Of a stretch of 61,167 bases of DNA, positions 9,346 to 45,898 are shown one piece after another. The stretch is taken from the NCBI GenBank assembly GCA_023701125.1, contig JAMPXO010000013.1, positions 1 through 61,167 of the forward strand. Direction: 5' to 3'. The notes under the pieces are model-generated. The model was not told the DNA's origin and did no database searches. It saw nothing but the letters and a program-made list of their open reading frames with translations. Position 1 is the stretch's first letter. Each line of letters starts with the position of its first letter. This DNA comes from Vicinamibacteria bacterium (lineage in GTDB: Bacteria; Acidobacteriota; Vicinamibacteria; Fen-336). The translations under genes and the position numbers were made by a program.

Positions 9346-9400
9346 CGTGATTCCTCCGTTCAGACGACCAGTTCGATTGTAGTGCGCTACGATCAGGGGG

Positions 9401-9796
9401 ATGAATTTCCGAGCCCTGCTCCTGATCGGTGTCGCCCTCGCCGCCCCGGCCTTCGCCGCCGAGCCCGCGCGGATGACCGCCGAAGAACTCAAGCCCCTGG
9501 TCGACTCGGGCCAGGCCGTGCTGCTCGACGTGCGCAGCGCGCCCGCCTTCCAGTCCGAGCACGCGGAGGGCGCGCGCCACATCCCGCTGGACGAGGTCGG
9601 CAAGCGCCTGGGCGAGTTGCCCAAGGACAAGCTGATCGCCGCCTACTGCACTTGACCGTCCGAAGCGACCAGCGCCCGTGCGGCGCGGCAGTTGCTCGAG
9701 GCCGGGTTCCCGAAGGCCGTCGCCCTCAAGGGCGGGCTGATGGCGTGGCAGAAGGCGGGCGGCAAGATCGTCTCCGGCGCGGCCGCGGCGAAGTGA
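9401..9796 (+). CDS. Exported rhodanese-like selenoprotein (in-frame UGA = Sec85)
   Basis: A 131-residue protein if the UGA at 9653-9655 is read as selenocysteine. A signal peptide (about 1-20) is followed by one rhodanese domain with LLDVRSAPAF and H60-IP before the active site, then C83-T84-Sec85-PSEATSARAARQLL and the C-terminal family signature VALKGGLMAW. Counting from Sec85 to the conserved Gly (AGF) gives the same spacing as from the catalytic Cys of GlpE-type rhodaneses, so Sec occupies the catalytic position; related proteins have Cys there (YCxCP). A SECIS-like hairpin begins 9 bases after the UGA. Without read-through the product would lack half of the domain. selA lies at 44.5-45.9 kb. 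Likely role: periplasmic sulfur or selenium transfer, or thiol redox work. The alternative is a nonsense mutation or base error. Confidence 0.85.
9665..9695 (+). promoter_or_regulatory. Candidate bacterial SECIS hairpin for Sec85 insertion
   Basis: Lower stem G9665-C9695, C9666-G9694, G9667-U9693, A9668-U9692, C9669-G9691, with A9664-U9696 possible outside it. A small internal loop follows, then upper stem GCGCC (9672-9676) with GGCGC (9682-9686) and a 5-base apical loop CGUGC. The apical loop starts 21 bases after the UGA and carries G as its second base, within the usual limits for bacterial SECIS elements read by SelB (16-37 bases; G among the first two loop bases). Confidence 0.7.
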
Positions 9797-9818: not shown

Positions 9819-10331
9819 TCAGCGCCCCTCGAGCAGCCGGGCGACCAGCTCCGTCGCCTTGCCCGGCTGCAGTCCCGCCGCGCGGCCGCGCTCCAGCGCG
9901 GTCGTGGCGTCGGCGCCCTTCTCGCCCTCGATCAGCGCGAGCAGGGCGCCGACCCGGTTCGACGAGCTGCAGTGGAGCAGCGTCCGCGTGGCCCCGTACT
10001 CGGCGAGCACGGCGCGCAGCAGGCGCGCGCTGTCCCAGTTGAGGGTCTCGGCCGTGACCGGGATCGACACGTAGCGCAGGCCCGCCGCGCGCAGCGCTTC
10101 TTCTTCCGCGGCGACGCCCGGCTCGCTCGCCGGTCGCAGGTTGATCACCGTCTCGAAGCCCAGCGCGTGGAGTTGGGCCACCGTCGCGGGGCTGGGCTGG
10201 CCGCCGATTGCCAGCGTCGGCGACAGCCGTTGGTAGGCGGGGATCGACTCCTTCGGCAGCGTCTCGGGGATCGCCGCGGCGGGAGCGGGGGCCTGGAGCA
10301 GGAGTGCGAACACGGGCGCGAGTGCGATCAC
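9819..10331 (-). CDS. Exported dual-specificity phosphatase-like protein (DUF442/Blh-like)
   Basis: A 170-residue protein with a signal peptide (about 1-20) and a cysteine-phosphatase fold. The PTP loop is complete: HCSSSNRVG (HCx5R). The domain resembles the DUF442 / beta-lactamase hydrolase-like group, often found near sulfur-transfer genes, with the conserved segment LAIGGQPSPATVAQL near the N-terminus. Substrate unknown. The GTG at 10331 has GGAGG 8 bases upstream and precedes the leader. It is the third gene of a minus-strand unit after the VPS10 and YwiC-like genes (20-bp gap), and converges on the rhodanese gene. Confidence 0.75.
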   Translation of the reverse strand: MIALAPVFALLLQAPAPAAAIPETLPKESIPAYQRLSPTLAIGGQPSPATVAQLHALGFETVINLRPASEPGVAAEEEALRAAGLRYVSIPVTAETLNWDSARLLRAVLAEYGATRTLLHCSSSNRVGALLALIEGEKGADATTALERGRAAGLQPGKATELVARLLEGR

Positions 10332-44522: not shown

Positions 44523-45898
44523 GCCAGGGCCGCCAGCAGCGCGGATCGCAGCTCCTCGTCTTCGCCCGGCAGCACCGTGCGCAGGTCGAGCCAGAGGGCG
44601 TCGTCGGCGACGCGGGCGACCACCGGCGGCGCACCCGCGCGCAGCCGGGTCGCCAGCGCCGCCGGCGCGGCGACCGCCAGCCGCAGGGCGAACCCCGGCA
44701 CCGCGACGTCGGGGGCGGCGCCGCCGCCCACCGCCGACTGGGCGGCACACACCTCCGCCACCAGGGCCGGATGGCCCGCGCGCAGGGCCGCGGCCAGCGC
44801 CCGTGCCCGCTCGGCGCCCCGCTCGGGCGGTTCCGCGAGCATGCGCCGCACGGGGATCTCGTCGAGTCGCTCGCGCTCGTGCAGGTCCAGCACCGCGTCG
44901 AGCGCGGCAATCCGCAGCTTGTCGAGCCGCAGTGCGCGGTAGAGCGGGTTCTTGCGCATCGGGCCGACGAAACGCCCGGCGCCGACGATCAGGCCGGCCT
45001 GCGGCCCGCCGAGCAACTTGTCGCCGCTCATCATCACGACGTCGACGCCCGCCGCGAGGCTGTGCGCGGCGCACGGCTCGGCCGCCAGCGCGCCCGCGCC
45101 CGGCGCGAGCAGTCCGCTGCCGAGGTCCTCGACGAGCGGCACGCCGGCCTCGCGAGCCAGCGCCGCCAGCTGCGGCAAGCCGGCACTCTCCGTGAAGCCG
45201 CTGATCGTGAAGTTGCTGGGGTGGACCTTGAGGATCGCCCCCGTCTGCGGCGAGAGCGCCCGCCGGTAATCCTCGACCCGGGTGCGGTTGGTGGTGCCGA
45301 CCTCGACCAGCCGCGCGCCGCTCTTCTGCATCACGTCGGGGATGCGGAACGAGCCGCCGATCTCGACCAGCTCGCCGCGGCTGACGATCACCTCGCGGCC
45401 GGCCGCCAGCGTGTCGAGCGCCAGCATCAGCGCCGCCGCGCAGTTGTTGACCGTGGCTGCCGCCTCGACGCCGAGCAGTCGCGCGAGGCGGGCCTCGGAG
45501 TGCGTCTCGCGCTGGCCGCGGCCGCCGCTGCCGAGGTCGAACTCCAGGTTCGTGTAGGAGGCCGCGGCCTCGGCGACCCGCTGCGCCGCGGCTGCCGGCA
45601 ACGGGGCGCGCCCGAGGTTGGTGTGGACGACGACCCCGGTCGCGTTGATCACTCGCACGAGGGACGGCGCGCTGCGCCGTGCGAGCGCCGCTTCGACCTC
45701 GGCCTCGGCCCGCCCCGGGTCGGCGGCACCGCCCGCCACCACCGCGGCCCGCGCCCCGTCCAGCCAGGCCCGCACGGCGTCCGCCACCGCGGCCCGCCCG
45801 TGGCGCTCTGCCAGAGCGGCGAGGCCGGGCCGGGCGAGCAGGCGGTCGACGGAGGGCAGGGCGCGTCGTGGATCGGGGTCGCCGCTCGAACTGCTCAT
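44519..45898 (-). CDS. selA: L-seryl-tRNA(Sec) selenium transferase
   Basis: A 459-residue PLP enzyme that converts Ser-tRNA(Sec) to Sec-tRNA(Sec) with selenophosphate. The family core is clear: INATGVVVHTNLGRAPLP, YTNLEFDLGSGGRGQR, NNCAAALMLALDTLA, EVGTTNRTRVEDY, KVHPSNFTISGF, and the PLP Lys in MMSGDKLLGGPQAGLI, then RKNPLYRALRLDKL. The presence of selA means the organism makes selenocysteine, which supports the UGA-containing rhodanese at 9.4 kb. selB, selC and selD are not in the window. A TATAAA box lies 10 bases before the ATG, implying a near-leaderless transcript. Confidence 0.95.
   Translation of the reverse strand: MSSSSGDPDPRRALPSVDRLLARPGLAALAERHGRAAVADAVRAWLDGARAAVVAGGAADPGRAEAEVEAALARRSAPSLVRVINATGVVVHTNLGRAPLPAAAAQRVAEAAASYTNLEFDLGSGGRGQRETHSEARLARLLGVEAAATVNNCAAALMLALDTLAAGREVIVSRGELVEIGGSFRIPDVMQKSGARLVEVGTTNRTRVEDYRRALSPQTGAILKVHPSNFTISGFTESAGLPQLAALAREAGVPLVEDLGSGLLAPGAGALAAEPCAAHSLAAGVDVVMMSGDKLLGGPQAGLIVGAGRFVGPMRKNPLYRALRLDKLRIAALDAVLDLHERERLDEIPVRRMLAEPPERGAERARALAAALRAGHPALVAEVCAAQSAVGGGAAPDVAVPGFALRLAVAAPAALATRLRAGAPPVVARVADDALWLDLRTVLPGEDEELRSALLAALA

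Follow-up and report, generated by a model that had tools for sequence, protein, structure and literature searches.

A predicted exported rhodanese with selenocysteine in a Cys-x-Sec pair from the class Vicinamibacteria (Acidobacteriota)

Introduction

The locus described here raises the question of whether an in-frame UGA in a rhodanese gene ends a short protein fragment or is read as selenocysteine and, if it is so read, what chemistry the resulting protein could carry out. The gene lies on contig JAMPXO010000013.1 of the Vicinamibacteria bacterium assembly GCA_023701125.1, from a soil-type member of the Acidobacteriota; the whole stretch of DNA that was analyzed, 61,167 nucleotides in length, is referred to as the window. 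As argued below, its product is very likely a short single-domain rhodanese, predicted to be exported, in which codon 85 specifies selenocysteine; the Cys83-x-Sec85 pair of this protein probably performs sulfane-sulfur chemistry.

Results and Discussion

The reading frame and its N-terminus

9401..9796, + strand: rhodanese-like selenoprotein gene (predicted), 131 aa with the UGA at 9653 read as Sec; PF00581 read-through match; best NCBIfam model NF041203
9401..9457, + strand: signal-peptide-like N-terminus MNFRALLLIGVALAAPAFA, with an AxA cleavage motif
9647..9655, + strand: predicted active-site pair Cys83-Thr84-Sec85 (CxU), with the Sec codon UGA at 9653-9655

The rhodanese-like frame begins with ATG at 9401, is interrupted once, by TGA at 9653-9655 (codon 85), and ends at a normal TGA stop at 9794-9796; the codon-85 TGA stands in the context AAYCT-U-PSEATSARAARQLL...GGLMAW and is followed by PSEATSARAARQLLEAGFPKAVALKGGLMAWQKAGG up to the stop. 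The first-pass annotation had read the frame in this way, across the UGA to GGLMAW and a normal stop, and had expected ordinary annotation to truncate the gene at residue 84; standard ORF calling, which stops at the UGA, does return a product of 84 aa. The read-through product matches PF00581 (Rhodanese) over all 102 profile positions (61.1 bits, cut-off 22.2, E 1.5e-16), and a six-frame search of the genome recovered the locus with exactly one internal TGA. Use of UGA as a sense codon throughout the genome was ruled out, since the rhodanese gene's own terminator is UGA. A second selenocysteine rhodanese had been suspected at C169:22939-23265; with tighter bounds, this locus has no stop within the domain and no YCxU motif, and it was discarded.

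The signal-peptide-like N-terminus recurs among the UGA-containing homologs introduced below: by a crude rule, a hydrophobic stretch with AxA is found in 25 of 43, and a hydrophobic stretch without AxA in 14 more. Judged from these N-terminal features, the rhodanese is predicted to be an exported protein.

Homologs and conservation of the UGA codon

Vicinamibacteria bacterium ACD1, an independent sister MAG of the same genus (locus L056), has UGA at the same codon of a protein with 76% identity. A rival explanation takes the UGA for a genuine stop, or for an assembly error, with an 84-aa product and decay of whatever lies beyond it; against this, protein identity to ACD1 shows no drop past the UGA, being 80% downstream and 75% upstream. 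The dN/dS values, from a weak and uninformative comparison, are about 0.5 upstream and 0.67 downstream. The rival explanation draws on the 84-aa ORF call and on the copy in the second congener, Acidobacteria bacterium ACD2 (L057, near 3250), where a one-base insertion just before the UGA, either a mutation or an assembly error, shifts the frame; the UGA triplet and the SECIS hairpin of this copy are otherwise intact. Both genomes also keep the sequence TACGAT (region 9388-9401 in the window), a possible -10 element that ends 7 nt 5' of the rhodanese ATG; given this short distance, a leaderless mRNA is possible.

A profile search of 193 genomes of the class Vicinamibacteria, from which the best loci were extracted and kept by the motif YCx[U/C], yielded 61 homologous domains: 43 YCxU loci with a UGA codon, spanning 11 families, and 18 YCxC loci with a Cys codon. 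The earlier expectation that family members carry Cys where the UGA stands was thus borne out by 18 homologs with Cys beside 43 with UGA at that codon. Cys83 is present in all 61 homologs, as is either Sec or Cys at position 85, the loci having been chosen by that motif. On the phylogenetic tree the Sec/Cys label changes about five times, at least three of them on well supported branches, and far less often than with shuffled labels; on this basis Sec and Cys appear to have been exchanged several times among these rhodaneses, in a direction that the tree does not give.

One MAG (G074) has four YCxU rhodanese genes (L107, L116, L120, L121), three of which are near-copies with a membrane-anchor-like N-terminus and the SECIS loop AGUUU; in another (L095, G007:C37:32703-33017), a YCTU rhodanese forms the C-terminus of a DedA-like-looking membrane protein, and a cytochrome ubiquinol oxidase-like gene follows.

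A conserved hairpin downstream of the UGA

9672..9686, + strand: bacterial SECIS hairpin GCGCC-CGUGC-GGCGC, with a 5-bp stem and a 5-nt loop; identified by same-offset conservation and frozen codons

The bacterial SECIS element is a stem-loop located immediately downstream of the UGA, with a small apical loop that contains G (PMC1088965). The hairpin at 9672-9686 fits this description in its position and its small G-containing loop: it starts 16 nt after the UGA (19-33 nt counted from the U of UGA), and its apical loop at 9677-9681 lies 21 nt after the UGA and contains G. A SECIS element had been predicted for the interval 9640-9720, and the SECIS-like hairpin was found inside it.

Comparative evidence for this hairpin is strongly offset-specific. 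Within the class Vicinamibacteria, it occurs at the same offset in 42 of 43 UGA genes and in 0 of 18 Cys genes; when 24 other offsets were tried in the UGA genes, 23 were without a hairpin and one had a hairpin in a single gene. Out of sample, among other Acidobacteriota genes found by NF041203 (L136-L145), the hairpin was present in 6/6 UGA genes and 0/4 Cys genes. In every UGA gene the loop has G as its second base, as in CGUGC, CGGGU, AGUUU, GGUGC and similar loops, and the SECIS of L095 shows a compensatory stem change from C-G to U-A. Across the window, 4 of 942 TGAs carry a hairpin at this specific offset with the loop G.

The codons of the hairpin region are frozen synonymously in the UGA genes: Ala GCC in 43/43, Ala GCG in 42/43, and Ser AGY in 43/43. 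The hairpin-region Arg is encoded by CGU in 30 of 37 cases and by CGG in 7, never by CGC, while CGU accounts for 8% of Arg codons elsewhere in the UGA genes and the Cys homologs mostly use CGC at this Arg. As a caveat, binomial p-values for codon freezing are overstated, related sequences not being independent, and the contrast with the Cys homologs is the safer measure. Hairpin energy compared with synonymous-codon shuffles gave a mean z of -1.02 for Sec genes vs. +0.13 for Cys genes. Single-sequence folding of the region 3' of the UGA against dinucleotide shuffles was not significant (z -0.6 to +1.1); such a result is expected for GC-rich DNA and uninformative on its own, so that the comparative tests are decisive. 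A search of Rfam returned no matching model. Since the hairpin is found in UGA genes but not in Cys genes, and its synonymous codons are frozen, the hairpin at 9672-9686 is identified as a SECIS element.

Selenocysteine machinery

44537..45865, - strand: selA (selenocysteine synthase), TIGR00474, 516 bits, cut-off 267.9

The source genome, a 5.4 Mb MAG, contains a tRNA-Sec (selC) with anticodon UCA (71.9 bits), SelB (312 bits; a frame of ~620 residues that contains the elongation-factor region and whose C-terminus aligns with the last portion of the SelB profile), and SelD (352 bits). The first-pass annotation had held that a genome lacking selB, selC or selD would speak against selenocysteine; selA, selB, selC and selD were all found. 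The selA gene shares the contig with the rhodanese gene without being adjacent to it, and selB, selC and selD are located on other contigs. The SelD gene (L060, G000:C9:11801-12718, - strand) has an in-frame UGA in SAGUASK and is itself a selenoprotein candidate. Among the 35 genomes with a UGA rhodanese gene, 26 have a clear tRNA-Sec; it was not found in the other nine MAGs, which are mostly fragmented, and MAG incompleteness is most plausibly the cause. Cys-form rhodaneses also occur in genomes with tRNA-Sec, for example G031, G041 and G044.

The UGA is more than a chance feature of the sequence, since it is kept with its flanks in ACD1, 43 homologs have it at the same codon, and so few TGAs of the window carry the offset-specific hairpin. 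Selenocysteine machinery, the UGA in the sister genome, the Sec and Cys homologs, and the same-offset hairpin of UGA genes only together lead to the reading, based on sequence comparison, that the codon-85 UGA is almost certainly decoded as selenocysteine. A true stop or an assembly error is extremely improbable: the codon is shared by 43 genes with a hairpin and frozen codons that are missing from the Cys homologs, and the genome has the complete machinery.

Fold and active-site register

A rhodanese fold is supported by an AlphaFold2 model built from a four-sequence alignment (pLDDT 84.8), by its top PDB matches in Foldseek, which are rhodanese-like, and by the PF00581 match. The best structural match, the uncharacterized rhodanese BH2092 (PDB 3nhv/3o3w), has the same strand-to-helix loop length; its loop is YCWGPACN, with Gly at position 85 where the window protein has Sec85. 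Unlike typical thiosulfate sulfurtransferases, the window protein has an active-site loop without a basic residue and with an invariant Glu88.

In rhodanese active sites the catalytic Cys is the first of six loop residues, and the last is Arg, Thr or Ser in 13 structures (PMC8533005). In the window protein this loop is C-T-U-P-S-E when counted from the strand, and U-P-S-E-A-T when counted back from the helix; the helix-counted loop ends with Thr or Ser in 43/43 UGA genes, in agreement with the loop-end rule. Alignments with domain 2 of 1yt8 and with 6mxv bring residue 85 opposite the catalytic Cys with no gap. In contrast, alignments with 3tp9 and 3nhv in the strand register ('IVxYC') place residue 83 at the canonical catalytic Cys, and the predicted model has Tyr82 as the last residue of the strand and Ala89 as the first of the helix, so that the loop begins with Cys83. 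The earlier claim that Sec stands at the catalytic position is supported by the helix register and the loop-end rule, and is opposed by the strand register and the predicted loop boundary. Because of the helix register (1yt8, 6mxv) and the Thr/Ser at the loop end, Sec85 is favored as the nucleophile, and it is likely that Sec85 rather than Cys83 is the attacking residue.

In selenoenzymes the attack is generally made by Sec; this speaks, together with the helix register and the loop end, against a second reading, according to which Sec85 is present but serves as the resolving or second redox residue of a CxU selenenylsulfide switch, with Cys83 as the canonical rhodanese nucleophile. This second reading deserves attention as the less probable of the two: by strand register and YC motif, Cys83 falls on the catalytic Cys of 3tp9, a loop of equal length in BH2092 has Cys at position 83 and Gly at position 85, and the predicted loop between residues 82 and 89 opens with Cys83.

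Relationship to known rhodanese selenoproteins

Lists of selenoproteins have included rhodanese-like members since 2005, and the first-pass annotation correctly placed them in selenoproteome surveys, where the CxU subfamily appears as 'COG0607 form 2, CxU' (PMC9312934) and as 'rhodanese-like form 3', NF041203 (PMC13188914, Table 1); the latter paper credits the CxU form to Zhang and Gladyshev 2005. The accompanying claim that an exported CxU rhodanese is little described was half right, the CxU kind having already been catalogued (PMC9312934, PMC13188914; NF041203).

Among NCBIfam models, NF041203 rhodanese_LYCAU ('rhodanese-related (seleno)protein') gives the window protein its highest score, and the family shares with it a single-domain rhodanese architecture, a YCxU/YCxC active site and a similar length. 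The two differ in that the window protein scores 86.7 bits, below the equivalog cut-off of 115, and has YCTUP, not LYCAU. All ten homologs tested also missed this cut-off; among 396 genomes of the phylum, one (G272) has a match above it, and this sole member has the same SECIS hairpin as the window gene, while many other matches carry one TGA. The window gene probably works like the NF041203 family and is related to it, lies outside its curated definition, and belongs to the bacterial CxU rhodanese-like selenoproteins.

Other rhodanese selenoproteins are less similar. Forms 1, 2 and 4 (PMC13188914, Table 1) also have Sec in a rhodanese domain, but it is a single Sec (UxxS, UxxG), whereas the window protein has Cys two residues before Sec. 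TsoB (NF045694) is likewise a Sec rhodanese, but in a two-Sec rhodanese/DsbD fusion of about 570 aa; the window protein matches NF045694 weakly (15 bits). PspE, the periplasmic single-domain rhodanese of E. coli, and GlpE share the fold of the window protein, and PspE is also exported; profiles of the two give weak matches only. GlpE and PspE have a single catalytic Cys, without a CxC or CxU pair. Both transfer sulfur from thiosulfate (PMC2593051).

Acidobacteriota are hardly mentioned in the open-access selenoprotein surveys that were consulted. New here are the phylum-wide spread of these genes below the NF041203 cut-off, their SECIS signature, and the adjoining exported DUF442-type sulfurtransferase-like gene. 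The relatives of the window gene are probably also truncated by ordinary ORF calling, and the 43-gene set with its near-invariant SECIS provides an alignment for rebuilding the NF041203 cut-off or a SECIS covariance model, which would probably add many Acidobacteriota selenoproteins. With 43 Sec and 18 Cys versions and three or more switches on the tree, the gain from selenium in a rhodanese becomes testable; although the kind is already catalogued, its breadth in Acidobacteriota, its strict SECIS and its Sec/Cys exchange make a useful set for such tests.

Gene neighborhood and possible function

9819..10331, - strand: exported-looking BLH_phosphatase (DUF442)-type protein with the loop HCSSSNR; PF04273, 47.6 bits, cut-off 26.1

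The BLH_phosphatase/DUF442 gene is convergent with the rhodanese gene and is kept beside it in ACD1 and ACD2. We take PF04273 to be the DUF442 for which sulfane-sulfur transfer has been reported. In that report, a DUF442 domain with the loop CRTGTR catalyzes sulfane-sulfur transfer (PMC8533005); the DUF442-type neighbor is a possible partner of the rhodanese, and its presence suggests a periplasmic sulfane-sulfur role for the latter.

Sulfane-sulfur chemistry is, in our assessment, the probable activity of the rhodanese, most likely as a periplasmic Cys/Sec sulfane-sulfur (persulfide) transferase or reductase. SelB and tRNA-Sec, acting on the SECIS hairpin, would insert Sec at codon 85; the low-pKa selenol of Sec85 could then accept, in the periplasm, the sulfane sulfur of a persulfide, polysulfide or thiosulfate, forming a selenosulfide (Se-SH). 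Cys83 would hand the sulfur on, or resolve Se-SH to an internal Se-S bond with release of sulfide, and a periplasmic thiol system would re-reduce the Cys83/Sec85 pair. Alternatively, Sec may be inserted into a protein with a function other than sulfur transfer: on its rhodanese scaffold, the CxU pair could act as a periplasmic thiol-disulfide or peroxide oxidoreductase, or it could bind selenium or a metal. The invariant CxU/CxC pair and the loop without a basic residue are compatible with such a role, and reviews assign a redox function to most selenoproteins of this sort (PMC9312934); yet the complete match to the rhodanese profile, with its GG...W motif, and the adjoining exported DUF442-type gene with its CSSSNR loop, of a domain that transfers sulfane sulfur elsewhere (PMC8533005), make it unlikely. 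More speculative still, and doubtful at present, is the wider proposal that a large family of exported or membrane-anchored Cys-x-Sec rhodaneses across the Acidobacteriota, here with an exported DUF442-type neighbor, forms an unrecognized periplasmic persulfide/polysulfide system that operates by a selenenylsulfide switch, not by persulfide ping-pong, and has repeatedly exchanged Sec and Cys.

The gene context of 18 UGA loci revealed no shared sulfur-metabolism operon, and distant homologs have other neighbors. Four UGA rhodanese genes from two families (L071, L089, L093, L094) have a divergent FAD-linked oxidase (GlcD-like) gene as a common neighbor.
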